Notes under the pieces: model-generated | Database searches by the model: none | What the model saw: the letters and a program-made list of their open reading frames with translations, nothing else | What the model was told of the DNA's origin: nothing | From: a virus | Virus record (IMG/VR): IMGVR_UViG_3300025435_000050 | Span: 1-33,822 of that record | Length of the DNA stretch: 33,822 bases | Direction: 5' to 3' (one strand) | Program-made: the position numbers and the translations under genes | Part shown: positions 1 through 33,822 of the stretch, in pieces | Position numbering within the stretch: the first letter of the stretch is position 1 | Layout: each line of letters opens with the position of its first letter

Positions 1-2212
1 TGTGGTGAACGTTCGCGGTGACGGTAACGACCGGGGTGACGGTTAGTGTGTCGATCGCCAACTCTGGCGACAGGTAGATAGATCCCGTAACTGTGGGTGC
101 GGTGGTCAGGTGGGCGCTGTTGGGGTGACTGACTGGCGCGGTGACCGCTATCGTAGGAGTCGCCGATAGCGTGGCGGCGGCGTGAATGGTTTTCGCTGTA
201 GTCGCTGACAGTTCCGGTTCCGACGTAAAGTGTCTGGTAGCAAGTTCGGGATGCAGATGTGCTACACCCGAAACGGCGGGAGTGATCGTGGTGTCGGCGG
301 TGTTGACGTGAGCCACTGCCACCTGGCCGCTAATTGTGGGCGTAATGGTGACGCTGGCTTCGTTGACGTGGGAAACCGTGACGGTGGAAGAAACAGTCGG
401 GGTGACAGTGAGTGTGTCCACGGCAAGTTCGGGATGCAGATGTGCGACCCCGACGATTGTGGTGGTGATAGCCAGTTCTGCGGTGTTGACGTGAGCGACG
501 TTTTCGCGTGCCGAAACTGTTGGGGTTTCGGTGAGAGATGCGGCCAGGTGAATAATCTTCTGCGCGGTGGCGGCAAGTGTCGGTGTGACGGTGACGGCGT
601 CGGTAGCGAGTTCGGGATGCCTGTACAGGTTCGCTATTGCGGTCGGTGCGAATGTGGCGTTCGCGGTGTTGACGTGATGGACCGTGACCGCTGCCGTGAA
701 TTGTGGATCTATGGTGGCGGCGGCTGTCGCGTATGTTTCGCGCCGGCCGACGGCGGCGAGTGTTGGGGCGATGTTAAGTTCGGGACTGGCGGCAGCGGGA
801 TGCAGATGCGCGGTGCTGGCCAGTTGCGGAGTGTAGGTGACGTGGTCGATGGCCAGTTCCGGGTGAAGATAGATTTGGCCGGAAACAGAAGGTGTAGCTT
901 GCAGGGCGGCGGCTTCGACGTGCCGCACAGTGTCCGACAGCGACACCGTTGGCGTCACAGTGACGTTTCCGCTGTTGACGTGGTGGACAGCGACAACAGC
1001 GTCGAAGTTCGGGGTGATGTTCAGATCGGCAGTAGCGTGCAAAGTCTTCTCGAACGCCACCACCGCGGTCGGCGTGATCGTGGGGTTCGCGTTATTGATG
1101 TGCCTGACCGTTATCGAACCCGACAGGGACGGCGTGACCTGAAGTGCGTCGGTCGCCAACTCGGGATGACGATAGATCCTGCATGAAGCGGACGGTGTAA
1201 CGGTCAGCGCCGCAGAGTTGACGTGATCAACGTTGACGACACCCGAAGCGGTAGGCGTGACGGTAAGGGCTGCCTCAACATGAATCGTCTTGGACACCGT
1301 CCCGAAAACCTGCGGTGCAACAACCGGGCCGGAACGCGAAAGGCCGGGACGATAGTTTGCATTCGCCGAAACTTCCGGATTGATGATCGGCGAAGACGTA
1401 AACAGCTTCGCGAAAGACTCGGCGAAAACCGGGGCCGCGGTCAAATGCGCGGACATGGCGCTCGTGCGAACCGCTACACCGTGAAGCGTAGGCGGCATAG
1501 CCAACGCTGCCGAACCGTGCGCAGTACGCAAACCGGCGGCCGAAAATGCCGCCGACAGAGTAGCCGCTGCAGCGTTGTGAATTGTTTTTCTGACGGCGGC
1601 AGCAAGACCAGGAACAACTGCCAGACTGTCTATCGTCAACTCGGGGTCGAGGTAAATGGAGCCGATAATTCTGGGCGAGAACAGACCGGCGGCGTGCATC
1701 GGCGCAATAGTTGTGATCGAGAATACTGGGTTGACATTTAACGCGCCGACGATGTGCCGAATCTTGTGAACAGCGGAAGTCAACGACGGCGGTACGGCCA
1801 AACTGTTATACCCGTAAACCGTACGATGACCGAAAGCGTTAAGAACGGGCGCAATGTTGAGGTACGTATTTCCGTACGCTTCGCGAAGAATGCTGGCATC
1901 TATAAAAGCATCTAGCTCGATAGACAAAGAAACCAAAACTTCGGACACCATCTCGATGCCGAACTGCGGAACAAGATCAAAAAGGGCCTGAGCGAAAACT
2001 TCGGTAACGATCGGGTTCGTGCCCGCCACAACCGTACTAATGCGGTTCTGCTGAGAAGTGCTCGATCTATTCTGCGCGGCTGCTGACGAAACTCGAGAAT
2101 CCGGCGCAGCTACTGAAGCGGTTCGCTCCGGACCCACCGTGGAGACGCGGCTCCGGTCTGGCGCAACTGGAGTGATGCGCCCCGGAACCATTGAGATACG
2201 GTTCCCGGCCAT
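1..2212 (-). CDS. Repetitive Ser/Thr/Val-rich virion (tail or surface) protein, 3' end outside window
   Basis: An uninterrupted frame of 737 codons runs from ATG at 2212 off the left edge; it has no stop in the window. Residues 1-60 carry a short R(I/V)S..V.P.R repeat and residues 65-145 look globular or helical. From about residue 148 to the edge the chain is built of roughly 20-residue units, each starting H(V/P)(N/E).A and followed by (V/I)TPT.S; variants begin HVNTA, HPELA or HVEAA. This composition (Thr, Ser, Val, Ala, His, few Lys or Cys) suggests a beta-strand repeat rod. It lies at the downstream end of the head module, so a tail-fibre, adhesin or surface-lattice role is inferred; I do not recognise a named family. 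An AGAGAAG Shine-Dalgarno lies about 10 bases before the start. Its repeats also create many meaningless open frames on the other strand. Confidence 0.85.
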   Translation of the reverse strand, partial: MAGNRISMVPGRITPVAPDRSRVSTVGPERTASVAAPDSRVSSAAAQNRSSTSQQNRISTVVAGTNPIVTEVFAQALFDLVPQFGIEMVSEVLVSLSIELDAFIDASILREAYGNTYLNIAPVLNAFGHRTVYGYNSLAVPPSLTSAVHKIRHIVGALNVNPVFSITTIAPMHAAGLFSPRIIGSIYLDPELTIDSLAVVPGLAAAVRKTIHNAAAATLSAAFSAAGLRTAHGSAALAMPPTLHGVAVRTSAMSAHLTAAPVFAESFAKLFTSSPIINPEVSANANYRPGLSRSGPVVAPQVFGTVSKTIHVEAALTVTPTASGVVNVDHVNSAALTVTPSASCRIYRHPELATDALQVTPSLSGSITVRHINNANPTITPTAVVAFEKTLHATADLNITPNFDAVVAVHHVNSGNVTVTPTVSLSDTVRHVEAAALQATPSVSGQIYLHPELAIDHVTYTPQLASTAHLHPAAASPELNIAPTLAAVGRRETYATAAATIDPQFTAAVTVHHVNTANATFAPTAIANLYRHPELATDAVTVTPTLAATAQKIIHLAASLTETPTVSARENVAHVNTAELAITTTIVGVAHLHPELAVDTLTVTPTVSSTVTVSHVNEASVTITPTISGQVAVAHVNTADTTITPAVSGVAHLHPELATRHFTSEPELSATTAKTIHAAATLSATPTIAVTAPVSHPNSAHLTTAPTVTGSIYLSPELAIDTLTVTPVVTVTANVHH

Positions 2213-3036: not shown

Positions 3037-5373
3037 TTAGATGACCTTCCGGTGGCGACGGATAACATCATTGAGTTCCGCTTCGCGCTGCGCAGCCTTC
3101 AATCTCTGCTCGGCCAGTTGAGACTCCGAATCCAGGGTTTTCGCGCGGGCGCGCTTGTCGATAACCTCGCGTGCCAGGCGTTCCGCCGGGGTGGTGATGC
3201 GGCAGTTGGGGTCTTGGTCGAGAATTCCGCGGTAACCGACAGGGGCGGAACCAGCGCTACGGAGGTACGCCAACCCCTCGCTGACGGTGCCAGTGTCTGG
3301 CGCACCGATCTCTTTACGAAGCTCTGAGAGCTTGTTGTTGATGTCGCTGCTGGTTCCGGCCTTGATGGGTTTCTTTCCGGTCAGGGTGAGCAACTGGCGG
3401 CGGGCCACGACTAGGCTTTTCCGGAGTTCCACGCTGTTAGAAAGCTGGTAGCAGTGGACGATGGTTCGCTCCAGCGCCTCGGCCATTCCCAGGTCGATGC
3501 TCATCATCTCGCCGTCGTCGCCGCACTCCTCTTTGTCTTCCTCGTCCGCAGCCATCTCGTCGTAGCACTCTTCTTCTTCTTCGCCACGAATGTTGGTGGG
3601 TTCCCAACTCGAACCGGGGCTGAACGCGGTCCCGGGGCCACCGAGGGTAGGGCCGTCGTGCGGGTCGGTGCCGCACATTTCGTCGCTGCCATACATTTCG
3701 GCGTCCATCGAACGAAGCGCGTCGTCAAGGTTCTGCGGGGCAGGGTTCAGGTCATGCGGACCGTTGTACTGGTGCTTCGGGTCGCTCGGCTCGAGTGGAC
3801 CCGTTGTCCAGTCGTAAGCCTGGTGTCCGGGGGCTACGACCGGCGCAGTTCCGACGACAGGGTTCGCGACAGGAACGTTCACGCCACCGGAAACTCGGCC
3901 ATTTCCTTGAACAATGATGTTGTCCGCAGTTTTTCCTTTGGCACCGCCGTAGTTGGGTCGGTCATCGGGCACGGACCCGACCTCTCCACCCACGCTGTAG
4001 GGTTCGTCGTGCGGGTCGCCGCCGCCGCCCTCTCCCTTGAAGTTTCCGTTGACGGGCTTGATTTTCGATCCGGCCGGGTAGGGGCCGAAATCGTACGAGT
4101 CATCGTGGTTGTCCATTGACAGCTCCTGAGTGGACGTATCGTGGGGATCTTTCTCCGGCTGCGGTTTGCTGAAGACAGGTTTCTGGTCGATCATTTTTCC
4201 GCCCTGAATATTTCCAGGAATGGGGCCGGCGTCTACGAGTCCCATCGCGCCGATCTTGTAGGGGCGGTCGTGGGGGTCTTGCGGGTTGCCCGGTCCGTTA
4301 TTTGGACTCCATTGTTGCGCCGGGTCGTTCGCCCTTTTCGTGGAAGGCAACGGAACCTTGGAGCCGTCCGCCATTACGGCAACGAGCGAAACATTTCCAT
4401 CTGCACGCTGAACCTGCTCGATGTGGGACAAACCGGTCTCCGACTTCTCTTCACTGATCTTGATGTTCAGCTTCTCGGCGCGCGCCTTCACTCGCGATTT
4501 AATCGCATTCACCTGAGTCGCTGTATAACCCTTTTGATTCTTCGGCATATTGATGTACGACCAAGCGGCGCGGCAATGATCCTCGGTATCGATCGGATAA
4601 CGCTTCTTGCCGTCCGCCTTATATCCGGGGTCCGCGTACATGACCCCGCCGCCGGATTTTCCTTCCGCATTTTTTCTTTTCATCGGTTGCGGACGAATAG
4701 AACCCAAGCCCTGCGGAACATCTCCGGCCGAAATCGAAACCAACGCCGCCGCCGCACGCTTCACCTGGTCAACGTCCAACTTCCGAAGCTCAACAAGTTC
4801 CTTATTCGACAACTGCGACAATGCGCCAACGGCGTCCGCGATCACGGCGCGAGTTCCAGGATTCATCCCGTAATTAACAACACTCACATCACCCTTTTCC
4901 AGGGTCAGGGAGTTAATCATCCGGTGACTATAAGAGGTGTCCCAGGTCTGGTCCTGAACTCGGAAAGCGAAACTCATCTCGTCCATGTCCTTGCGGCGCA
5001 TCTTCGGAATCAACGCTTTAACATCCGGGTCCGAGGCGTCCAACGAGGCCCACACCCGCAACCCGTGCTGGTCGCTGCTCAGCTTCAACGTTCCGCTCTT
5101 CGTGCGTGCCAGTGGAGTACCAGTGTGATTGATCAGTAGCTGCACGTCGGGCTGCTCGGCGAGGGTCGTGTCGAAGGCCCGCTTCGACAACTGCTCCACC
5201 CAGCCGCCGGCCGCTGGACCTCCATGAACGTCATATTTTTCGAAGGTGGCTGCATAGCCTTCCAAAATAATTTGTCCGGTAGACTTGTCCTCACGGAACT
5301 CGAAACGGCCAACACCCTCACGGCGCTCCACGACGCCAATCAAGTTGGCCCGATCGCTGCGCAATTCAGTCAT
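3037..5373 (-). CDS. HK97-family prohead serine protease fused to a long repeat linker and C-terminal coiled coil
   Basis: 778 residues, far longer than the usual ~200-residue prohead protease. Residues ~20-185 are the S78-type protease, with His83 in LLINHTGTPLARTKSG and Ser134 in DEMSFAFRV as the probable catalytic pair. Residues ~245-303 (KKRYPIDTEDHCRAAWSYIN ... KSRVKARAEKL) match the small helical domain often attached to phage capsid-maturation proteins (DUF6582-like, from memory). Residues ~360-575 are a disordered Gly/Pro linker with repeated DPHD.P motifs at about 366, 409, 453 and 570. A very acidic stretch (~598-622) and a charged C-terminal helix (~725-778) follow. The protease would cut scaffold and capsid N-termini during head maturation; the extra C-terminal part may itself act as scaffold. 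GGAGG precedes the ATG. Confidence 0.9.
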   Translation of the reverse strand: MTELRSDRANLIGVVERREGVGRFEFREDKSTGQIILEGYAATFEKYDVHGGPAAGGWVEQLSKRAFDTTLAEQPDVQLLINHTGTPLARTKSGTLKLSSDQHGLRVWASLDASDPDVKALIPKMRRKDMDEMSFAFRVQDQTWDTSYSHRMINSLTLEKGDVSVVNYGMNPGTRAVIADAVGALSQLSNKELVELRKLDVDQVKRAAAALVSISAGDVPQGLGSIRPQPMKRKNAEGKSGGGVMYADPGYKADGKKRYPIDTEDHCRAAWSYINMPKNQKGYTATQVNAIKSRVKARAEKLNIKISEEKSETGLSHIEQVQRADGNVSLVAVMADGSKVPLPSTKRANDPAQQWSPNNGPGNPQDPHDRPYKIGAMGLVDAGPIPGNIQGGKMIDQKPVFSKPQPEKDPHDTSTQELSMDNHDDSYDFGPYPAGSKIKPVNGNFKGEGGGGDPHDEPYSVGGEVGSVPDDRPNYGGAKGKTADNIIVQGNGRVSGGVNVPVANPVVGTAPVVAPGHQAYDWTTGPLEPSDPKHQYNGPHDLNPAPQNLDDALRSMDAEMYGSDEMCGTDPHDGPTLGGPGTAFSPGSSWEPTNIRGEEEEECYDEMAADEEDKEECGDDGEMMSIDLGMAEALERTIVHCYQLSNSVELRKSLVVARRQLLTLTGKKPIKAGTSSDINNKLSELRKEIGAPDTGTVSEGLAYLRSAGSAPVGYRGILDQDPNCRITTPAERLAREVIDKRARAKTLDSESQLAEQRLKAAQREAELNDVIRRHRKVI

Positions 5374-5407
5374 CTCAAAGCCTCCGCGTTTTCACGGCCG
5401 GAAATGG

Positions 5408-7882
5408 TCATGTCAACTCCTCACCGTCAAGCATGTCACTATGTTTACCGTGGATAACGGAAGCTAGACGTATTTCTTTTTCGTATGTCGCAAATGGATC
5501 ATTATCGGCAGCCCTATTACCGGAACCGTCTTCTCCCCCACCAACTGGCGGAGTCGGATAATGCGCGGGCTTAATATCCGAATCAGGCGGTCCCGCAGGC
5601 GTAGTGCCCAAGGGAACAAAGCCAGGTGGGGCTAGTAAATCATCACCATTAGCCAACGGATCCATTTCTTCGCCGGCGCGAGCCTCATTCGGAGTCAAGA
5701 ACGAACCCTGAATAGCTTCCTTTAGTGCCGCATAACGACCATTCATATCTCCACGCAGCAAAGAATTGTAATCAAAACGGACGAATTGTCCGCGCGGCAA
5801 ACACGATGAAATAACAGATTCAATACACGAAGTCCACGGACGGAACGTATATGTAACGGCACCGAGAGTAATCTGCTCGACACCAGTACCCCACGCCGTG
5901 GTGTTATGCGTAATTATGCCATTAGTGACGTGGGTATGGGTTTCTTCAATCTCAAGCCCAACTGCCTGGCCGTCACCCAGGTGCTCAACAAACTTTACGC
6001 GGTCGTACTCGAATACAACCGGACGCACAGTGGCACAAGGATCTGCCAGAGACTTAAGCCGATCGGCCTTTCCTCGATGCGCCGGATAAAGTACCTGAGC
6101 CAGCTTGGCAAGTTCAGCCCCGCCTTTGACGCGCAGTTGCCAATGATCCCGGCAATCGGATTCTCGGCCATCCGGCATTTTTCGCCGCCCCGCCTTGGTT
6201 GCAAGGTACAGCGACGAGTTGATCCCCAGAAGAGCCAAGAGGTGCTGACAACCGTCAAGAAGTTCACGGCTTGCCGATCCCCAGTGGGCGTGAGGATGCT
6301 TGGCGGTCGTAGAAACGCAACCGTCTGAGTCCATGTAGCCGGTCAAAAATCCTTTCCACGCGTCCGGACCGCCGGCCATCACCATATCGGGCACAAACTT
6401 GTCGTAGCTGTGCGTGCCGATTAGTCCGGACTCGCGCAGTATTCCGCCGATTACCGAACCCGCACCGGCCCCAAGGATGTCGTAAGACCGATTGCCGCGG
6501 TAGGCCAAGCGTCCACCAAGCCCCTCGGTGATAGCTGTCATCTCGGCAATTACGTCAGGATCGGTGTTAGCCCAGCTTGAGTAGTGCTTACCGTCCATGC
6601 GGATATGACCGTCTCCGATCATCTGGCCGAGGAAATACCCGACTTTGCGGTCTAGATGCCCAACCTCGGATTCGAGATGCCCGAGGCCAATCCTGACGTA
6701 GTGACCAGGCTTAAGGTTGCCTGCGTGAATCCACTCGCCGCGGGCATCTAGTGGCCGGTTACCGGGTGTACGGAGTGCGGTCGCGGCCAACATGGGGTGA
6801 TCCGCCGTGCAGGTAAGTTCGCGTCCACGGGTTGTCGTGACTTTAACGATAGGCTTTACTGGAATGCTGCCGACCCAGGACACGCGGGACGCAACCAGCT
6901 TGGACCCATCCCACGCAGTCACCCTGTCACCGGGTATCAGCCGCTCAACCGGGGTGCGAGTACCGTCTGCCATCGTTACTAAAGTTCCCGCCACGACACA
7001 TTCTTTAGTGTCCCCAATCAGAATTGGTGGCACACCAAAAAGAAGACAAATTTCACTACGCTGAAATTGCCTAGTCTGAAGGAATTGTGATTCGTCGGGA
7101 CGCAGCGAGATCGGCTCGAATTTAAAACCTTTACTCAAAACTGCAGGTAGCCGCCGCCCGCCGTGGGATTGAATCCAGTTTTGTTGAATGAGCTGCAGTG
7201 TAGCGGCGTCAACATCCTGGTCGGTTTGTAGCGTTCCAGACGGGGTAGCCGATTCTTTATAGAAACGGTAACCGTATTCTTCTGCCGATAACCCAAGTCC
7301 GATGGCGACTGCTGCTTGACGGATAGGCGACATGCCCCACGGTTCTCCTGGCATTGTGAAACGGCGCATGTGGATGATGTCCTCTTTAGGTACCGGCTCG
7401 CCCATGATTCGATAGATGGGGTCGAACCACATGAGGATGTCTGGTCGGCGCTCGAGGAAAACGATGTCTGGGTGGAGCGGAAGAATGGATGTGGGGTAGC
7501 CGCTGCGGTCACGAGCGGTGATGTAGCTGTAAGCGTTTCCGCGCAGCGCCATGCTGGCCACCATCATCCATTTCCACTGGAAAAGATCGAATCCGGGAAA
7601 AGGTTGGCTGATGATGGCGGGCTGTGGCCTGACCTCTTTGGGGACGCCGCTGCTATCGCGGCGATACGCTTTCCAGGGCAGGCTGGCTATTGTGTCAGCA
7701 AGGAGCCGAACGCAGGCGAACACCGTCATGTGCGCCATCGCGCGATGAACACCCACAAAATCGTCAATGACGCCGACCTGCGGCGGAGGAACGAAGCTTG
7801 AACTCATCAAACTTCGTCGCTCAGGTTCTCCGCCGCCGACGTTACCTCCCGCCGATTGGAGGAATCTTCCAAGAATGCTCAT
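5408..7882 (-). CDS. Portal protein (HK97 type) interrupted by an intein
   Basis: 824 residues from ATG at 7882. That start overlaps the preceding stop as ATGA, which favours it over the in-frame TTG at 7909. N-extein residues 1-294 contain the portal core (MAHMTVFACVRLLADTIASL, GNAYSYI, PEDIIHMR-like, GMSPI). The splice junction falls in the highly conserved PPILIGDTKE / TTAWGTGVEQ stretch. Residues 295-660 are the intein. The C-extein (about 164 residues) carries QITLGAVTYTFRPW, the helical SLLRGDMNGRYAALKEAIQG and a Pro/Gly-rich tail. The portal forms the dodecameric vertex through which TerL packages DNA. Without the intein the mature protein would be about 458 residues, a normal portal size. 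Confidence 0.95.
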   Translation of the reverse strand: MSILGRFLQSAGGNVGGGEPERRSLMSSSFVPPPQVGVIDDFVGVHRAMAHMTVFACVRLLADTIASLPWKAYRRDSSGVPKEVRPQPAIISQPFPGFDLFQWKWMMVASMALRGNAYSYITARDRSGYPTSILPLHPDIVFLERRPDILMWFDPIYRIMGEPVPKEDIIHMRRFTMPGEPWGMSPIRQAAVAIGLGLSAEEYGYRFYKESATPSGTLQTDQDVDAATLQLIQQNWIQSHGGRRLPAVLSKGFKFEPISLRPDESQFLQTRQFQRSEICLLFGVPPILIGDTKECVVAGTLVTMADGTRTPVERLIPGDRVTAWDGSKLVASRVSWVGSIPVKPIVKVTTTRGRELTCTADHPMLAATALRTPGNRPLDARGEWIHAGNLKPGHYVRIGLGHLESEVGHLDRKVGYFLGQMIGDGHIRMDGKHYSSWANTDPDVIAEMTAITEGLGGRLAYRGNRSYDILGAGAGSVIGGILRESGLIGTHSYDKFVPDMVMAGGPDAWKGFLTGYMDSDGCVSTTAKHPHAHWGSASRELLDGCQHLLALLGINSSLYLATKAGRRKMPDGRESDCRDHWQLRVKGGAELAKLAQVLYPAHRGKADRLKSLADPCATVRPVVFEYDRVKFVEHLGDGQAVGLEIEETHTHVTNGIITHNTTAWGTGVEQITLGAVTYTFRPWTSCIESVISSCLPRGQFVRFDYNSLLRGDMNGRYAALKEAIQGSFLTPNEARAGEEMDPLANGDDLLAPPGFVPLGTTPAGPPDSDIKPAHYPTPPVGGGEDGSGNRAADNDPFATYEKEIRLASVIHGKHSDMLDGEELT
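5903..7000 (-). mobile_element. Intein with LAGLIDADG homing endonuclease in the portal gene
   Basis: 366 codons in frame. It starts with Cys (TGT at 6998-7000; CVVAGTLVTMADGTRTPVE) and ends with ITHN before Thr+1 of the C-extein (Asn codon 5903-5905). Splicing block B is seen as CTADHPML. Endonuclease blocks are VGYFLGQMIGDG and FLTGYMDSDGCVS, each with the expected acidic residue. A canonical class 1 mechanism is expected: Cys1 acyl shift, Thr+1 nucleophile, terminal His-Asn cyclisation. Insertion is in the most conserved strand of the portal, typical for homing endonuclease targets. Confidence 0.93.
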
Positions 7883-8025
7883 AATGATTTCCATCCGCAC
7901 GCGAAGCAAGGAACGACCAGCGCATCTTTCCAGACTGCTTTCCGCTCCTCACTTGAGGAATAACCGATTCTGGCGACCGGGGCGGCTTTCACGAACTCCG
8001 CACCGTCGCACACTGGGCACGTCAT
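7879..8025 (-). CDS. Zinc-ribbon microprotein (48 aa)
   Basis: ATG at 8025 to TGA at 7879-7881. MTCPVCDGAEFVKAAPVA opens with CPVC and the C-terminus has PCFACGWKSL, so two CxxC pairs form a likely zinc ribbon. It is locked into the operon at both ends: its ATG overlaps the stop of the membrane-protein gene (CGATGACG) and its own TGA overlaps the portal ATG (TTATGAGC). Such coupling between TerL and portal suggests a packaging or portal-assembly accessory, but no function is known to me. Confidence 0.8.
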   Translation of the reverse strand: MTCPVCDGAEFVKAAPVARIGYSSSEERKAVWKDALVVPCFACGWKSL

Positions 8026-8411
8026 CGCGTTACCTCGGATTTGTTAGTAGATGGCAATCCGGCGGCAATACCCAGGACAATCATGCAGATACCGAGAACA
8101 ACGATGCCGAGCCACAAATAGAGCATGCCGAATCCTGCGGACAGGACAAACATTCCCGCTAGTTGGAGCAGCGTCGCAATAAACTGCTGCCAGTCGCGCT
8201 TCTTGACCTCAGGTACATTGGGCACTCCTACCGGCCTCGTTGACCACGGAGTCGGAAGAACCGGGGCCTGCTGGTCAACTTCGGGATGCGGCGTTGACGC
8301 TCTATCTCCTCCTTCGCGTTCCCGCGCATCGCGATAAAGTCGACCACCCGTGCCGATCTTTGGGCTGTCGCCGTTGATTTTGCTTTTGATGTCGGTCACC
8401 TTGTCCACCAC
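8022..8411 (-). CDS. Small membrane protein between TerL and portal genes
   Basis: 129 residues from GTG at 8411, which is preceded by GAGGGA. The first ~70 residues are polar and Pro/Arg-rich. Two hydrophobic segments follow (about residues 75-92, FIATLLQLAGMFVLSAGFGM, and 95-115, LWLGIVVLGICMIVLGIAAG), giving a two-helix hairpin with a short polar tail. The start lies inside the last 16 bases of the terminase gene. Holins are often this shape, but the position inside the packaging operon makes that only one possibility. Confidence 0.75.
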   Translation of the reverse strand: MVDKVTDIKSKINGDSPKIGTGGRLYRDAREREGGDRASTPHPEVDQQAPVLPTPWSTRPVGVPNVPEVKKRDWQQFIATLLQLAGMFVLSAGFGMLYLWLGIVVLGICMIVLGIAAGLPSTNKSEVTR

Positions 8412-11113
8412 GATGTTCCCTCGCCGTCTTTGCTAGTTGACGAATTAGGAGGTTTTATGTCCTTAAACATTTGACCGCCCTCCTGGTCCCAATCTCTGAT
8501 CGTGTCCTCATCCGGCCACGAATGAATCATCGGACCACTATGCGGCTGCCGTTCCAGCCAGATAGCCGCAACGCACGCAATGAGCGGAGAAACGTCTACC
8601 AAACTGTTACGTCTATCAAAAACGAATCCCTCGCCAACGCTGCGCGACACGCCGGAAGCGGCCGCACGGTCTAAAACAGGGGCTGGGCGATGGAAAATCT
8701 TATGCTCAATAATTTGGTCGTAAAAAAATCCGGTAGTGCCGGCGACTTCAACGCCCGGACCCCACTCCACCACGGGAATTCCGGCTCGCTGAAGATCGTC
8801 AATCATCCCGCTGACAGGCGAACCGGTCTTCTGCACAGCAATACCAGCCAGCCATGTATTCTTCCGCTCCTGTAGCCACGGAATAATCCACTCCGTTCCC
8901 CTCGCAGCCTGGACAACCTCAATATGAAGATCACCGTCAGCTCTACGAGCCGCAATAGCAACATAACTACGAGAACGGTCATAATTAACGTCCAGGCCGG
9001 CATAAAACTTAACAACATCATCAGCAGGACGGCTATTCTTATCGGTCGTATAAGCCCAATGCTCGGCCGGAATAATACCCGGCTTCAACGCATCCACCCA
9101 CTGGCAATTTTGAGTCGGGATAAGGTCCCGGCCTGCAAGCCAGAGGCTGTCAGGGGAATTCACTGTAATGCAGCGCGTCGGGCGACTCGATACGGGCGAG
9201 ATCGATCGGATGCTAACTGTTGTCCGCTCTCTTGCCCGCGAAGGACGATTGTTGATCCTGGCCAGTTTGCGTTGCAAACGGAACGGCGACGGCTCTTCAG
9301 CGTCATGCGTCCAACCAACGTAGTACGCGGCACCACAAACCTTGTCGCCGAACTTAGACACTCCCTCACAAAGCGTGGCACGCCATCCCAATGATCTCGC
9401 GAGGTAAAGAACCTGCTCAGCCATCTCTTTATTGGTTGAGCAGTAGCGCACACGGCTATTTGCATCAATTGAGCCGTCTGTATCGCACAACCCTTGAATC
9501 AAGGCCAGTCGCTGTTCCGTACCGGCGCGCAGGTATATGTCGGGAATTCTTTTATCCGCCCAAATGCCCAAGTCGCGGCATCGGGCGGGGAACCCGTTCC
9601 GCGACTTTCGGGGTGTAATCCGAAAATTTATTCTCCGTGCGGTGCCAGTATTGCGCGTCGAGGTGACATTTACGCCAAGATGGCGCGTTAATTCGTCGGC
9701 ATCGGACTCAATACACGTAATCTCCGCCTTGCCCGTAGTTCCATCTCCCAACCAGGCACCCAGTAAATACGGATCTATGGGCAGTTTCAGTGGCTTGGAG
9801 ACGATTGCGTGTTGGCGCGGAAGTCGATACGCAAATTTGCCACCCGAGTTGTTTCTACCGGTTCCTCGCAGTACAAGATCTGCGGTGGTCAGTGTTTCCC
9901 ATCCACGATTACTACGTCGGTCATTAACCATCCAACGATGGTCGGAATCGGCGACCAGCTTACGTCCGTCAGTGGTCACGACCTCGTAGCATTGTCGATC
10001 GTTGAAAACCTCAGTCGTGTGTATAACATCAATCGGGTGTCCATCGGGGTGGTAGACCTGATCGCCAACGTCGATATCGCCCATCGTTGTCCAGCCGCTC
10101 GGCGTGAGTATAGGAGTGGCGATATCCAGTGCGAGATGCTCGGTCTGAAATCCTGGCAAATTTCTATACTGCTGAGCCTCAAACATCGAACGCAAATCAG
10201 AAAGTTTGAAATTATTCAAATGCCCTAAAGCCGGGTTAGCCAAATACCAATAAGACTCATCGCGCGGATCAACATCATCGGGGACTGACCATTCAAATAA
10301 ACCAGTCCTGGTATCGGAAGTATCGGCGGAAGTTATCTTCCGGATCGCGGCATCCCGCAAATCGCGTAAAACAATACTCCGCGCGTCACCCGCATTAGAT
10401 GTACAAACAACCTGAGAAAACGGCCTGACCAGCGTTGTCGGAGCGATGGCATCCCAAGCATCGGTGGTCGTGTGTTCACGCAGCTCATCCAACATCGCAA
10501 TATCGACAGACAAAGAACGGCCACCCTTTCGAGAAGCTGTCGCGGCTCGCCAATAACGTCGATTTGTAAGAATCGCACGGTGATTTCCGTTCGTAACCCT
10601 ATGATTAATCAGTTCTTTAGCTAACAAAGGGTTGTCTCTAATCTCGTCAACGACGTCTTTGAGTACCCCTTCGGCATATTGCAGGTTCTGTGCGGCGATC
10701 AATGCGAGTCGGGCACCCGGAGTTATTTTGTTGGCGTTTCCTTTGTTGCTGACGAAAAGTCTCCACAGGCCGAGTTGGCGTAGCCAAGTGGTTTTTCCTT
10801 GCTGCCGACTGACTAAAACAACAAGAATTTTAAAGCGGAAACCCCCATCTTCATCGTCTTTCTCGAGGGCGTGAATGTTTAGCCATTTCTGGTAAGGCAG
10901 CAGCTTCCATTTGAGTACGCTTTCGGAAAATGCGTTACAGTAAAATCCCCATGACGTTAAAGGGTTAAGTCCACAGCCGCACGGGCATTCTTCTGGTTTG
11001 CCAAATATGCCTTCGGCTGGACCCGTGCAGTGGCTTTCCAGGGGCGGAGTGTAGACGCGAGGAACCATCGCCCCGTATTGTGGATCTGCTTTAGATTCTA
11101 CTGCTGTAGTCAT
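8396..11113 (-). CDS. terL: Terminase large subunit interrupted by an intein
   Basis: 905 residues. The N-extein carries a Cys-rich patch (EECPCGCGLNP), Walker A-like VSRQQGKTT (101-109) and Walker B VDIAMLDEL (203-211), then FQTEHL at 322-327. Residues 328-669 are the intein. The C-extein resumes with CQWVDALKPG and holds the RuvC-like nuclease fold (FYAGLDVNYDRS, with the first metal-binding Asp, and late SPLIACVAAIW). TerL is the ATP-driven packaging motor and head-full/cos nuclease docked on the portal. Intein-free length would be about 563 residues, as expected. It lies 133 bases downstream of the small subunit gene and overlaps the next gene. Confidence 0.95.
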   Translation of the reverse strand: MTTAVESKADPQYGAMVPRVYTPPLESHCTGPAEGIFGKPEECPCGCGLNPLTSWGFYCNAFSESVLKWKLLPYQKWLNIHALEKDDEDGGFRFKILVVLVSRQQGKTTWLRQLGLWRLFVSNKGNANKITPGARLALIAAQNLQYAEGVLKDVVDEIRDNPLLAKELINHRVTNGNHRAILTNRRYWRAATASRKGGRSLSVDIAMLDELREHTTTDAWDAIAPTTLVRPFSQVVCTSNAGDARSIVLRDLRDAAIRKITSADTSDTRTGLFEWSVPDDVDPRDESYWYLANPALGHLNNFKLSDLRSMFEAQQYRNLPGFQTEHLALDIATPILTPSGWTTMGDIDVGDQVYHPDGHPIDVIHTTEVFNDRQCYEVVTTDGRKLVADSDHRWMVNDRRSNRGWETLTTADLVLRGTGRNNSGGKFAYRLPRQHAIVSKPLKLPIDPYLLGAWLGDGTTGKAEITCIESDADELTRHLGVNVTSTRNTGTARRINFRITPRKSRNGFPARCRDLGIWADKRIPDIYLRAGTEQRLALIQGLCDTDGSIDANSRVRYCSTNKEMAEQVLYLARSLGWRATLCEGVSKFGDKVCGAAYYVGWTHDAEEPSPFRLQRKLARINNRPSRARERTTVSIRSISPVSSRPTRCITVNSPDSLWLAGRDLIPTQNCQWVDALKPGIIPAEHWAYTTDKNSRPADDVVKFYAGLDVNYDRSRSYVAIAARRADGDLHIEVVQAARGTEWIIPWLQERKNTWLAGIAVQKTGSPVSGMIDDLQRAGIPVVEWGPGVEVAGTTGFFYDQIIEHKIFHRPAPVLDRAAASGVSRSVGEGFVFDRRNSLVDVSPLIACVAAIWLERQPHSGPMIHSWPDEDTIRDWDQEGGQMFKDIKPPNSSTSKDGEGTSWWTR
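9107..10132 (-). mobile_element. Class 3-type intein with LAGLIDADG endonuclease in terL
   Basis: 342 codons. The inferred first residue is Ala (ALDIATPILTPSGWTTMGDI), not Cys/Ser; it ends PTQN before Cys+1. The class 3 signature is visible: Trp in block B (ADSDHRWMV), Cys in block F (PTRCITVNSPDSLWL) and Thr in the last block (IPTQN). In this class the block F Cys makes the first nucleophilic attack. Endonuclease motifs are LLGAWLGDGTT and LIQGLCDTDGS. The exact N-terminal boundary (Leu327 or Ala328) is chosen so that the rejoined extein reads EHLCQWVDA. Confidence 0.9.
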
Positions 11114-13050: not shown

Positions 13051-13302
13051 CTAATCTAACCCGACCCCGTTCCACATTGATTCCTTGTACAGAATCTCGC
13101 CGATAACATCGCGCGGATCACCGGTTTTATTGATTATTGACAATGCGTGGGCCATGCCAGACATATACCCCGCACAGAAAAATCCGCGAGAATTGGCATC
13201 GAAGTCATCGGCCAGTACAAGTTTATCGATGAAATTACTTAAAGCTTCAGGATCTTCTGAAGGATTTTTGGAACCGTCCGATATAACTTCGTTGATTTTC
13301 AA
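13051..13302 (-). CDS. Hypothetical protein (83 aa)
   Basis: TTG at 13302 overlaps the TGA of the glycosyltransferase gene (AATTGAAA) and has GAAAGG six bases upstream, so I prefer it to upstream in-frame starts that would lie wholly inside the previous gene. The protein starts MKINEVISDGSKNPSEDPEA and contains SRGFFCAGYMSGMAHALSII, a small helical fold with a hydrophobic core. I do not recognise the family. Confidence 0.65.
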   Translation of the reverse strand: MKINEVISDGSKNPSEDPEALSNFIDKLVLADDFDANSRGFFCAGYMSGMAHALSIINKTGDPRDVIGEILYKESMWNGVGLD

Positions 13303-14000
13303 TTCGCGCCTTTCTCTTCCTTTGGTGCTGACCAAACCGGGCAATGCCCTAATTGAACTGTCCCGGTATACCAGCAAGATGGCTGACTAAAATTCCACGC
13401 CTTTCGGCCCGTATACTTATCGCCTCTCCACGGCCGTCCAATCGAATCAACATCCGCGTGATCAACAAGGCTCGGCTGGGTATAGCAGATCGGAATCTTT
13501 CGATCCTGCGCCCACCGCGAAATTCGCAGCGGCAACTCTTCATCTCGATCTTCAATAAATTCGATCATATCTTCAAGAAGATGGGCTTCCAGTGCGTAGC
13601 CGACGGAACCAATCAAGCAGTCCGCCAGGAGCCACGCATGGCCACGTTCTTCCGCCGACACGACAGCCTGACGTATTTGACGCTGCGCCTCTCCAGATGG
13701 ATTTCCGGTCCCTAAATACAGGCCGACCACTGGGGCGGGGGCGTACTCCAGGGCTTCGCTCAGGTGCCTGCGAAATTCGGGCAGCGGCACCGCATCGTCT
13801 TCCAGGCACACAACCCAGTCAACATTCAGCTCAAGGAAAGACTTGAGCGCGTCAAGATGGTTGAGGGCACATCCAAGTAGGTGATCCATCCGGCCCCTGG
13901 AATGCCAGGAAACTACTCCGTCAACTTTTTCGGCCAATCGTTCGGCCATGGAACGCCTATCGGGATGCCCGATTATTTTTATTGGTATTTCTTTTATCAT
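13299..14000 (-). CDS. Glycosyltransferase family 25-like protein
   Basis: 233 residues from ATG at 14000, with AGGA six bases upstream. MIKEIPIKIIGHPDRRSMAE resembles the opening of family 25 enzymes (a name plus DRR..M). NHLDALKSFLELNVDWVVCL leads to the LEDDAVP motif (EDD at ~67-69), the expected nucleotide-sugar/metal site. PVVGLYLGTGN and GSVGYALEAHLLEDMIEFI follow. A frame extension upstream to 14108 overlaps the zinc-finger gene and is not needed. It probably adds a sugar to a phage protein or existing glycan. The next gene starts inside its stop codon. Confidence 0.75.
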   Translation of the reverse strand: MIKEIPIKIIGHPDRRSMAERLAEKVDGVVSWHSRGRMDHLLGCALNHLDALKSFLELNVDWVVCLEDDAVPLPEFRRHLSEALEYAPAPVVGLYLGTGNPSGEAQRQIRQAVVSAEERGHAWLLADCLIGSVGYALEAHLLEDMIEFIEDRDEELPLRISRWAQDRKIPICYTQPSLVDHADVDSIGRPWRGDKYTGRKAWNFSQPSCWYTGTVQLGHCPVWSAPKEEKGAN

Positions 14001-14169
14001 CGCCATTCCTGCATTTAGTCCACCAATTCGCCGGCTCTCCGTCGAGCGTAATTCGGAAAGGATAATACGAAGCTGGGCAGCAATTTCCAGATCGATCGAA
14101 ATGACCAAATATGTGATTCTGCCGAGTTGACCGAACAGGTAGCCAACACGCGGGGCAGCGATTTTTCAT
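13957..14169 (-). CDS. Small zinc-finger protein (70 aa)
   Basis: MKNRCPACWLPVRSTRQNHI then FGHFDRSGNCCPASYYPFRI gives CxxC ... H..H ... CPAS, a recurring actinophage zinc-finger pattern (C..C, H, then CP.S). The ATG at 14169 overlaps the previous stop (GAATGAAA), which fixes the start. The basic Asn/Lys/Arg tail overlaps the start of the glycosyltransferase by 44 bases in another frame. Likely a nucleic-acid or protein-binding accessory; function unknown. Confidence 0.6.
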   Translation of the reverse strand: MKNRCPACWLPVRSTRQNHIFGHFDRSGNCCPASYYPFRITLDGEPANWWTKCRNGDDKRNTNKNNRASR

Positions 14170-14459
14170 TCTCCGTCTCTCCAGCTAGGATCAACAACTG
14201 GAACTGTTTCCCACCATCGCGGAAAAGTTTTTTCCTCATCTTCGGCAGAAACATTCGAAATTTTTTTCAACAATTTCTTAAATTTCGCGTGATCTAAATC
14301 GTAAAGATCTTTCAGCAACTTCGCGGCAAGGTTATCCGCATCTCTTAAAATCCCTAAAAGGATATGTTCCGGACCAACATTTTCATGGCTCAACATAGAA
14401 GCTTCTCGGAGCGCCAACTCGAGAACTCTTTCGGACTTAAAATTTTTCTTTTTCACCAA
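14166..14459 (-). CDS. Free-standing Clp N-terminal repeat domain protein
   Basis: 97 residues. Positions ~10-65 match one Clp N-domain repeat: ERVLELALREASMLSHENVG then PEHILLGILRDADNLAAKLL, the hallmark A...A..L.H..VG.EH(I/L)LLG(I/L)L of ClpC/ClpA N-domains. The rest is a Lys-rich helix and a Trp-containing tail. There is no AAA+ ATPase, so the protein cannot unfold substrates itself. The ClpC N-domain is where adaptors and substrates dock, so this may be a decoy, adaptor or inhibitor of host ClpC, or protect phage proteins. That is inference. It overlaps both neighbours by a few bases. Confidence 0.85.
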   Translation of the reverse strand: MVKKKNFKSERVLELALREASMLSHENVGPEHILLGILRDADNLAAKLLKDLYDLDHAKFKKLLKKISNVSAEDEEKTFPRWWETVPVVDPSWRDGE

Positions 14460-14941
14460 CGTATTACCTCGGCCCGGTTAGTGATTACCGATACCTTCCC
14501 GTCGTAATGCGAACCTAAAGCGCAGACAGTTGCGACTGCAGTGGGAGTAACAACCTCGTCGCCCACTTTCAGTTCGCCCTCACCATCCCATGCGTAGGTG
14601 AAAGAAGCTCCAGTAGGGGAGAACTTAACCTGTATAAGTTGTCGGCCACCAGAATCCCTCGTCGGGGCCGACGTAACGACCTTCGACTCTACCGGTGCTG
14701 CACTTTCGCCAAGGCGCGCACGATACTCATCAATAGCTGTTGCGCAACGGTCCCTCAACTCCTTGATTTTCCTCCAATACTCAAGGATGTCGATTACTGC
14801 GCGCAACTCAATCTCGCTGAGATTCGTCAGGCTATCCACATCGCGGCGGATCAGATATCCGACTAAAGTCAAACGATCCGCGCGATCTGATACATCGGCA
14901 TCTTTGAGGAGGGCAAACAATCGCCGAACACTATCGGCCAT
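14453..14941 (-). CDS. Two-domain hypothetical protein (helical N-domain, SH3-like C-domain)
   Basis: 162 residues; GGAG precedes the ATG at 14941. The N-terminus (RRLFALLKDADVSDRADRLT then LVGYLIRRDVDSLTNLSEIE) is the small helical module often found at the C-terminus of phage recombination and replication proteins. The C-terminus (VKFSPTGASFTYAWDGEGEL, KVGDEVVTPTAVATVCALGS) looks like a beta-barrel with SPTG...YAWD, reminiscent of small DNA-binding barrels. A DNA-metabolism accessory role is plausible but unproven. Confidence 0.75.
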   Translation of the reverse strand: MADSVRRLFALLKDADVSDRADRLTLVGYLIRRDVDSLTNLSEIELRAVIDILEYWRKIKELRDRCATAIDEYRARLGESAAPVESKVVTSAPTRDSGGRQLIQVKFSPTGASFTYAWDGEGELKVGDEVVTPTAVATVCALGSHYDGKVSVITNRAEVIRW

Positions 14942-15539: not shown

Positions 15540-16001
15540 CTAACCTACTCCACGGGCGCGCTGGATACGCTGCCGCGATGTCACCTTGACGTGACATTTG
15601 TGGCACAAAGTCTCTAAATTAGATAGGTGGTGGCCGCAATCCGCGCCATAGCCAGCACCCCGGCGCGGATCAATGTGGTTGACTTCCAGACGGTTATCGT
15701 TTCCTTTGCCCAGAAAAAAGGCCCTGCTCCAGTACGCGAGCTGCCCATTGCGCAAGCACATCTCGTAATACTCGCCCTCGATCCAGCCACACTTCACACA
15801 CTGAGCGCCATCTCGATCAACAGCAGCGGCCCTGGCTTCCGTCCAGTAGTGATTACGCTCATACATGGTTGCACATTCCCGGCCACACCAGGAACGCTGC
15901 TTTTTGCTGAGCGGAATACCACACGCCCTGCATACACCGGAAACAGAATCAAATGGCAGAAGAAAACAGCCAGGCATCAAAGCAACACGTAATTCCCCCA
16001 T
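15540..16001 (-). CDS. HNH endonuclease with N-terminal zinc fingers
   Basis: 153 residues. The C-terminal HNH core is clear: LEVNHIDPRRGAGYG, CGHHLSNLETLCHKCHVKVT. The N-terminus adds VCRACGIPLSKKQRSWCGRE (a CxxC...CxxxC finger) and CVKCGW. HNH proteins encoded near terminases are commonly required for specific DNA cutting during packaging in HK97-like phages, which fits its place here, although a homing enzyme cannot be excluded. The start overlaps the upstream gene by 25 bases; a downstream in-frame ATG (MPGCFLLPF) is an alternative. Confidence 0.9.
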   Translation of the reverse strand: MGELRVALMPGCFLLPFDSVSGVCRACGIPLSKKQRSWCGRECATMYERNHYWTEARAAAVDRDGAQCVKCGWIEGEYYEMCLRNGQLAYWSRAFFLGKGNDNRLEVNHIDPRRGAGYGADCGHHLSNLETLCHKCHVKVTSRQRIQRARGVG

Positions 16002-16618: not shown

Positions 16619-16624
16619 TTGATC

Positions 16625-17047
16625 ATGAATAATTGGGTTGACGAGTTAGACCCGGAAGTAATCTCAGTGTCCGAGGGGTTTGAGTACCTAAAATCGGTCA
16701 CCGAAGAACGTGCTTACGACAATATCAACTTCAGCCCCCCGGAAGCCGTCCGCGCAGAGGCTAAGCGCGGCCTTGAGTGGCGTAGAAAGTTCAACCGCGG
16801 CGGAACGCCAGTCGGCGTAGCACGCGCCCGCGACCTATCCAATGGAAAAACAATCAGCCCTTCAACGGCACGCAGAATGCACAGCTACTTTTCCCGCCAC
16901 GAAGTCGACAAGCAGGGCCAAGGCTTCAGCTCGGGCGAGGGATACCCCAGCGCCGGCAGAATCGCCTGGGCACTCTGGGGCGGCGACCCGGGACAGTCAT
17001 GGTGCGCGAAACTTACACGTCAAATGGACGCGGCCGACAAAAAGTAG
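16625..17047 (+). CDS. Conserved phage protein of unknown function
   Basis: 140 residues from ATG at 16625. An acidic N-terminus (NNWVDELDPEVISVSEGFEY) leads to a conserved block: PPEAVRAEAKRGLEWRRKFN, GGTPVGVARARDLSNGKTIS, then RRMHSYFSRHEVDKQGQGF and YPSAGRIAWALWGGDPGQSW. I remember this block as recurring in phage proteins, sometimes fused to capsid or portal-associated domains, but I know no established function. No ribosome site is visible, consistent with a leaderless transcript. Confidence 0.8.
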   Translation: MNNWVDELDPEVISVSEGFEYLKSVTEERAYDNINFSPPEAVRAEAKRGLEWRRKFNRGGTPVGVARARDLSNGKTISPSTARRMHSYFSRHEVDKQGQGFSSGEGYPSAGRIAWALWGGDPGQSWCAKLTRQMDAADKK

Positions 17048-17116
17048 TGGCGGGGGCAGGATTCGAACCTGCGGCTCTGAATTTTGTCCAGCGAGCTTCC
17101 ACTGCTCCACCCCGCA
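17048..17116 (-). tRNA. Degenerate tRNA-like element resembling actinobacterial initiator tRNA
   Basis: Read on the minus strand from 17116: a G-rich acceptor strand with T1 opposite C72, D-arm GAGC...GCTC, arm CTGGA...TTCAG, and a perfect T-arm GCAGG-TTCGAAT-CCTGC followed by CCCCGCC. The overall similarity, and the unpaired first position, are closest to initiator tRNA(fMet). But the anticodon loop is shortened to CAAAA (or, with a 4-bp stem, ACAAAAT lacking U33), and the D and variable loops are also short, giving 69 bases. Probably a non-functional tRNA relic or tRNA mimic, possibly part of an attachment site. It lies opposite to the surrounding genes. Confidence 0.5.
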
Positions 17117-32886: not shown

Positions 32887-32910
32887 ATGACACCACAAGA
32901 AAGGGAACCC

Positions 32911-33822
32911 ATGCCTTTTTACGGCGACGAGGACTTTGAGGCGTACTGCGACGAGTGCAGCGAGGGTACGGACGACCCGTACTGGTGCGAAGCTTGCGAC
33001 GAGAGCTTCTGCCAGACGTGCTGGTACAACCTCGACAGCGATGATTACCGTTGCGGTCGCTGCGGCGGGAGTTCGTGCGAGGACGAGGACATGCCGCGGG
33101 GTGTCCACGGGTACAACTACACGCCCGATTATCGGCCGAAGGGTGATCCGGCGCACACCATGATGGGTGTGGAGTTGGAGGTCGGGGACGACTACGGTCG
33201 CAACGTGGTCGATGTTGTGCAAGACATCGACCCCGGCGAGGCGCACCTCTACATGAAGGAGGACGGCAGCATCCAGGGTGTCGAGATCGTGACGCACCCG
33301 ATGACGTTGGCGTGGGCGCGGAACTACCGTTTCGATGAAATGTTGCGTCGGCTGAAAACCAGCGGTTGCTGGGCCGATTACAACTACGGTCTGCACGTTC
33401 ACGTCTCGCGTGCGGCTTTCCGTCAGCGTCCGTCAGCTAACCGGCGGCGCGGTTACGGAACGCAGTCACAGCACCACCAGATGATGTGGCTCATGTTCCT
33501 GTACCGCAACTCCGATCCGCTCAAGCGACTGGCTCGCCGCGACAGCAGCCGGTGGGCGAGTTTCCGCTCGCCGCGACCGGGCGAACTGAAGCGCAAGTCG
33601 ATGGGGCCGGATCACGACGAGCGGTACGTGGCCGTCAACTGCAACAACCGGGACACCTACGAGTTGCGGTTCTTCCAGGCCACCCTCAACGTCGAGGAGT
33701 TCTGGGCGGCGCTGGAGTTCGCTGACGCCAGCGTCAAGTACACCCGGAACCTGGGCAGCAGCGAGGTACTGAAAGGCGGCGGACTGTCCTGGGACCGCTT
33801 CACCAACTGGTGCAGCGACCAC
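32911..33822 (+). CDS. Amidoligase-like enzyme with N-terminal zinc fingers, 3' end outside window
   Basis: 304 codons to the edge, no stop. The N-terminus YCDECSEGTDDPYWCEACDE then FCQTCWYNLDSDDYRCGRCG has four CxxC pairs in a cross-brace-like arrangement. The ligase region follows: HTMMGVELEVGDDYG, HLYMKEDGSIQGVEIVTHPM, YNYGLHVHVSRAAF and NNRDTYELRFFQATLN, matching the E-x-E, DGS...E.V..P, H.H.S and E.R...T order of the amidoligase_2 (carboxylate-amine ligase-like, COOH-NH2 ligase) group. It probably forms an amide or isopeptide bond on a peptide or amine; the substrate is unknown. AAAGGG precedes the ATG. Residues ~70-175 are duplicated in the 30587 protein. Confidence 0.85.
   Translation, partial: MPFYGDEDFEAYCDECSEGTDDPYWCEACDESFCQTCWYNLDSDDYRCGRCGGSSCEDEDMPRGVHGYNYTPDYRPKGDPAHTMMGVELEVGDDYGRNVVDVVQDIDPGEAHLYMKEDGSIQGVEIVTHPMTLAWARNYRFDEMLRRLKTSGCWADYNYGLHVHVSRAAFRQRPSANRRRGYGTQSQHHQMMWLMFLYRNSDPLKRLARRDSSRWASFRSPRPGELKRKSMGPDHDERYVAVNCNNRDTYELRFFQATLNVEEFWAALEFADASVKYTRNLGSSEVLKGGGLSWDRFTNWCSDH

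Follow-up and report, generated by a model that had tools for sequence, protein, structure and literature searches.

A gene on the minus strand of an IMG/VR virus record is shown by its sequence to encode one repeat of the ClpC N-terminal domain and no ATPase, in an intact frame that overlaps the genes on both sides; it is absent from the relatives searched and outlying in base composition. We tentatively suggest, at somewhat less than an even chance, that its product is soluble and competes with the N-domain of host ClpC late in infection. The window (the whole stretch of DNA analysed, an IMG/VR virus record 33,822 bases long) carries portal, terminase and prohead protease genes, in agreement with the original prediction that the protein is phage-encoded. 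The stretch recurs in two more IMG/VR contigs, which match it across 12.8 and 14.8 kb with 100% identity; this argues against an assembly slip but tells nothing about conservation. The features referred to below are as follows.

14166..14456, minus strand: single Clp_N-repeat protein, 96 aa from a GTG start (97 aa from a TTG at 14459)
14256..14441, minus strand: the Clp_N repeat proper, four helices, residues 6-67 (DSSP on the model, VIA-align)
14169..14255, minus strand: acidic, Trp-containing C-terminal tail, residues 68-96 (pI 4.2; pLDDT 63-68 by blocks)
14453..14941, minus strand: upstream neighbour, 162 aa, phrog_25178, with homologs in relatives (L159 8859-9245, and L157)
13957..14169, minus strand: downstream neighbour, 70 aa, Cys-rich, phrog_5559 (E 1.5e-9), with homologs in two relatives
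13299..14000, minus strand: glycosyltransferase, phrog_854 (E 8.8e-52), syntenic in relatives; start taken as the ATG at 14000
8396..11113, minus strand: terminase large subunit, phrog_9 (E 1.7e-55), downstream on the same strand, with an intein-like insert (LAGLIDADG_3, E 1.9e-8)
5408..7909, minus strand: portal, Phage_portal (E 1e-72), with an intein-like insert (LAGLIDADG_3, E 2.2e-13; Hint, E 1.4e-6)

The Clp_N gene overlaps both of its neighbours, through a GTGA shared by its own GTG and the upstream TGA, and through an ATGA shared by its own TGA and the downstream ATG. With a GAGG motif 7 nt ahead of the TTG and 10 nt ahead of the GTG, which could serve either, TTG 14459 and GTG 14456 are both candidate starts. 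The sole Pfam match of the protein is Clp_N (PF02861), which scores 39.3 bits where the cut-off is 20.7 (E 7.2e-10), covering residues 15-51 and profile positions 1-37 of 53. No other Pfam domain was found and no NCBIfam model scored over its cut-off, hence no AAA+ module; for a protein of 96-97 aa in which Clp_N is the only Pfam domain, the predicted lack of an ATPase was confirmed. With phmmer, 36 distinct PDB sequences were matched at E<=0.001, the best being the N-domain of Bacillus lehensis ClpC (E 7.8e-20), and the protein aligned with either repeat of two-repeat ClpC N-domains. Only one such stretch is present, a second Clp_N repeat being absent, and a clear assignment to ClpC repeat 1 or repeat 2 was dropped at 49.3 versus 50.6 bits. 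Among phage families, the protein matched phrog_35667 (E 5.6e-7, profile positions 94-134 of 235).

The repeat does not account for the whole protein. It had been claimed that the frame matches one ClpC N-repeat and nothing else; the match itself was upheld by Pfam and PDB, and the second part nearly so, residues 68-96 being a low-confidence acidic tail. This 29-residue tail matched no family in Pfam or PHROG. Such a distinct acidic tail after the repeat would suit an adaptor that holds a phage or host protein with its Trp-containing tail and delivers that protein to ClpC through the repeat, promoting degradation, and SPO1 Gp53 offers a precedent for phage-made adaptor-like proteins of ClpC in the portion of the source available (PMC6873191). 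However, an N-domain is normally the place where adaptors bind, not a part that itself docks onto ClpC, and the tail is without a family match; we regard an adaptor as quite unlikely. At the other end, a basic start (KKKNFK) precedes the repeat, which begins at about residue 6 with no N-terminal dimerisation part before it. The basic start and acidic tail would also fit a small regulator whose repeat has DNA or a phage protein, not ClpC partners, as its target. ClpC2 gives some substance to this idea, since it binds its own operator and represses its own gene, with the DNA site placed in the C-terminal Clp_N part, according to the excerpts available (PMC10030653). The same excerpts describe ClpC2 as a two-repeat protein that dimerises via an N-terminal domain (PMC10030653), a domain that the window protein does not have, and we consider a regulator of this kind very unlikely.

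An AlphaFold2 model built with an alignment of 30 Clp_N rows had a pLDDT of 84.8 overall, with four helices (DSSP: 6-21, 29-38, 43-52 and 56-67) mostly above 90 and an unsure tail. Foldseek against the PDB placed ClpC N-domains first with probability 1.00, at an E of only 7e-3 at best, while VIA-align superposed the model on S. aureus ClpC (9rai_e) with Z 9.7 and an rmsd of 1.1 over 60 residues (range 6..67), with N-domains of ClpT, ClpB, ClpA and ClpC2 among the lower-ranked matches. Against BFVD the best E was 1.8, though relatives such as Myrna gp251 exist. Folded from its single sequence, the protein gave a pLDDT of 56.6, so that the well-scored model is not independent of the Clp_N alignment, and the primary evidence for homology to a ClpC N-repeat is the sequence match rather than the model. 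ClpT2 and ClpT1 also appeared in the VIA-align list (4y0c_B, Z 7.0; 4y0b_A, Z 6.6). In plants these two are Clp_N proteins that have no motor, and the matches could point to an accessory factor resembling ClpT, one that would dock on ClpP or the ClpCP complex and alter its assembly. Yet ClpT has two repeats where the window protein has one, and the ClpT Z values are no higher than those for ordinary ClpC N-domains; we therefore hold a ClpT-like factor to be most improbable.

The genomic setting points to an actinobacterial phage, as the original prediction had supposed: the closest named-phage portals belong to Mycobacterium phages, for example Courthouse (genus Omegavirus; 48% identical), and a portal-alignment scan of bacterial genome contigs found one relative, in Mycolicibacterium sp. 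S2-37. From these sequences an actinobacterial host is inferred. Clp_N matches occurred in 61 of the 61 Mycobacteriales genomes sampled, the best ones mostly in frames of ClpC length. Read leftward, the gene order begins with an HNH gene (15540-16001), an HTH gene, the 162-aa protein, the Clp_N gene and the Cys-rich 70-aa protein, and continues with two glycosyltransferases, another HTH gene, terminase, portal and prohead protease. The N-terminal part of the 162-aa neighbour resembles the C-terminal end of the RecT-like phrog_4171. Expression with the virion genes, also part of the original prediction, is plausible from this arrangement, given the common strand, the overlapping frames and a terminase gene that lies about 3 kb downstream.

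Several other features of the window were recorded. The terminase insert is matched across by relatives L091, L092, L108 and L110, while other relatives are without it. A tRNA-Phe gene (17047-17116, minus strand), scored by both ARAGORN and Rfam, has the anticodon AAA, which is unusual for Phe. The homolog of a plus-strand gene at 16619-17047 (phrog_2859) stands between portal and prohead protease in L103 and L104, a different position that makes the gene seem mobile. At the end of the window is an Amidoligase_2-like protein (32887-33822, plus strand; phrog_22302, E 8.8e-85).

The Clp_N gene was not encountered among the relatives of this phage, a result beyond the reach of the original prediction, which was based on the window sequence. 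A scan with a portal alignment gave 98 loci, of which the best 80 were kept; two of these (L077 and L078) are the window's own phage and were left out of the comparison. A Clp_N match was found in none of the 78 other portal loci in the fetched DNA of the best 80 of 98, and in none of the 50 portal-relative records searched whole. Many of these loci and records are fragments that end before the Clp_N place; the junction itself was read in G001 and G002. G001 has a portal 85% identical to that of the window, and its homolog of the 162-aa protein (8859-9245) directly overlaps the Cys-rich homolog with no Clp_N gene between them; the G002 junction is likewise without it. On these counts (0/50 relative records and 0/78 other portal loci) we rejected the view that the Clp_N gene belongs to the conserved gene set of the lineage. 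Searches that included INPHARED and viral contigs yielded no divergent homolog of the window protein usable to show selection. The GC content of the gene is 0.405 versus 0.559 for the window, and it is the lowest-GC 291-nt stretch there, with 32 of 33,532 starts at or below its value, all at 14157-14229. Taken together, absence from relatives and outlying base composition make insertion from elsewhere the simplest reading, by which the gene would be an acquired accessory gene; loss in the relatives is the alternative.

To place this gene among viral Clp_N proteins, two scans of viral contigs were made with Clp_N alignments, giving 72 loci besides the window's own contigs, which were classed according to the length of the frame, the presence of a Walker A motif and the number of repeats. 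Two repeats without an ATPase were encoded at 54 of the 72 loci (49 different sequences), a Walker-A ATPase at 14 (one cut off) and a single repeat at two (L019 and L059); another two were cut off by contig ends. Two repeats are therefore carried by 54 of 56 uncut motorless viral proteins, in contrast to the one repeat of the window protein. Some of the 72 records may be bacterial DNA misfiled as viral. Phage_portal was matched in 15 of 32 records, which we chose ourselves among the 72 loci, and in 4 of 14 control genomes; TerL_nuclease was matched in 3 of the 32; and phrog_2 was matched in 15 of them but also in 11 of the 14 controls, which makes it a weak phage mark. In a tree of 63 two-repeat domains, the 50 motorless ones lay in two main groups, with bootstrap not settled, and the well-supported branches forced at least two changes. 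To judge from these sequences, viral contigs commonly encode motorless Clp_N proteins, which probably have more than one origin. One of the contigs, L015, carries two different two-repeat Clp_N genes side by side (5127-5687 and 5713-6396, plus strand).

Proximity to head genes was seen in some of these contigs. In L019, an unrelated 5.1-kb contig, portal and prohead protease flank a 99-aa single-repeat gene whose GTG overlaps the stop of portal, and L017 and L025 each have a two-repeat gene directly ahead of portal. These cases are suggestive, but an association of Clp_N with portal genes was not supported statistically, the distance being <=1.5 kb in 3 of the 15 portal records (two of them short contigs) versus about 1.9 expected by a rough hand estimate. 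Among catalogued phages, the window protein found no match in INPHARED at E<=1e-3; at E<=10 there were 18 records, including Myrna, Phabba and a second Phabba record (NC_054714). The MT835711 frame from this list is a whole ClpC of 819 aa, and 14 unannotated records in it are presumed to be bacterial DNA. Phabba gp260 (L005 2755-3420) is annotated as 'Clp family protein, ATPase domain' and Myrna gp251 (L004 2725-3432) is noted as 'ATP protease'; each has two Clp_N repeats and no Walker A in its frame, and they are certainly phage cases of motorless Clp_N. No description of phage Clp_N proteins was found in the literature of open-licence PMC papers. Motorless Clp_N is known from cells and is present, mislabelled or unnamed, in two mycobacteriophages; the single-repeat form is a new, reduced version of this kind.

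The docking surface of the window protein departs from that of other Clp_N repeats. In a comparison with 118 repeats from 59 two-repeat frames, frames with ATPase included, the protein has K for F/Y4, N for T5, N for Y26, P for T29 and N for G42; T stands at position 5 in 105 and at position 29 in 109 of the 118 repeats. The Thr of the FT motif and that of GTEH, both missing here (T5 and T29), presumably take part in phosphoarginine binding. E30 and H31 are kept, E30 being aligned with the Glu of the GTEH motif. E32 and E106 are crucial determinants of two phosphoarginine sites in the part of the source available (PMC12583610), and the equivalent Glu is present in the window protein as E30. 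The 42 distinct motorless two-repeat frames in the alignment mostly keep the pocket residues, and L019 and L059 keep T5, Y26, T29 and the Glu, so that the window protein, with its replaced pocket residues, is the most altered of the three single-repeat proteins. At the sequence level, this altered pocket argues for either a changed partner or decay.

Decay would make the gene a remnant of a captured ClpC or ClpC2 gene with little or no function. A single repeat that has lost pocket residues, a foreign base composition and the fact that no relative keeps the gene are all what such a remnant might look like. Against this stand the intact frame with overlapping starts and stops on both sides and an upstream GAGG, the complete four-helix unit of the model, and L019, a second, independent single-repeat gene of near-equal length (99 aa). 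On balance we find a remnant rather unlikely.

We return to competition with host ClpC, our best guess. The roles that the original prediction had offered, adaptor competition, protection of virion proteins and redirection of ClpCP, are putative. Translation of the Clp_N gene would be joined to that of the leftward genes running on into terminase, portal and prohead protease, and the Clp_N product would act late as a free competitor of the ClpC N-domain, by binding ClpC partners (adaptors or tagged substrates) or by contacting ClpC N-domains; self-pairing might rebuild a two-repeat domain. ClpC-dependent degradation would then be slowed or redirected during virion assembly. The idea of a decoy draws on two precedents, each from a source available in part: ClpC2, which has two repeats and no motor, titrates a ligand of ClpC1 (PMC10030653), and SPO1 Gp53 targets ClpC (PMC6873191).

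Fold and homology, the overlapping neighbours, the same-strand course to terminase and portal, the place of the L019 gene among head genes and the Clp_N matches throughout the sampled Mycobacteriales all favour such a competitor. A decoy is further favoured by the retained phosphoarginine-site Glu and by the many surface-keeping two-repeat orphans in viral contigs, and a simple decoy is disfavoured by the lone repeat and the replacement of F/Y4, T5, Y26 and T29. Competition is likewise weakened in that the pockets were described on a two-repeat domain, that the model relies on Clp_N rows, that no divergent homolog shows selection and that the link of Clp_N to head genes is not statistically shown. 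A broader and bolder version, which we consider unlikely, is that phages repeatedly took the ClpC N-domain without the motor and turned it against ClpCP as a decoy for substrates or adaptors. The window protein would then be the minimal form, a single repeat pairing with itself to imitate a two-repeat docking domain whose specificity has changed, and it would be produced alongside the packaging genes so that virion proteins escape degradation. Antibiotics target ClpC1, several natural peptides attacking it at the N-domain, and a motorless N-domain made by a phage would offer a natural way of probing what that surface does during infection. Phage mimics of ClpC-N may, to go by the survey, form a broad class, the mislabelled Phabba gp260 included.

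Compared with known systems, the window protein has in common with the ClpC/ClpC1 N-domain the four-helix repeat and the pocket Glu and His, whereas ClpC and ClpC1 have two repeats plus AAA+ modules and the window protein has one repeat, no AAA+ module and several changed pocket residues. Mycobacterial ClpC2 is alike in being a Clp_N protein without an ATPase in an actinobacterial setting, but it is described, in the excerpts available, as having two repeats and an N-terminal dimerisation part (PMC10030653), in contrast to the single repeat without extension seen here. SPO1 Gp53, compared by description, is likewise a phage protein; in the portion available it binds ClpC as an adaptor-like factor and acts there (PMC6873191), that is, as an adaptor-like ligand of ClpC for which kinship with Clp_N is not claimed. 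Myrna gp251 and Phabba gp260, of the phrog_35667 kind and from phages of Mycobacterium hosts, are phage-borne motorless Clp_N proteins like the window protein, but unlike it they have two repeats and a different C-terminal part (235 and 221 aa, respectively). The L019 protein is alike in its single repeat, near-equal length, place among head genes and overlapping stop and start; it keeps YT and YIGTEH and scores as a second repeat (94.9 versus 79.1 bits), while the window protein is undecided between the two (50.6 as second repeat, 49.3 as first).
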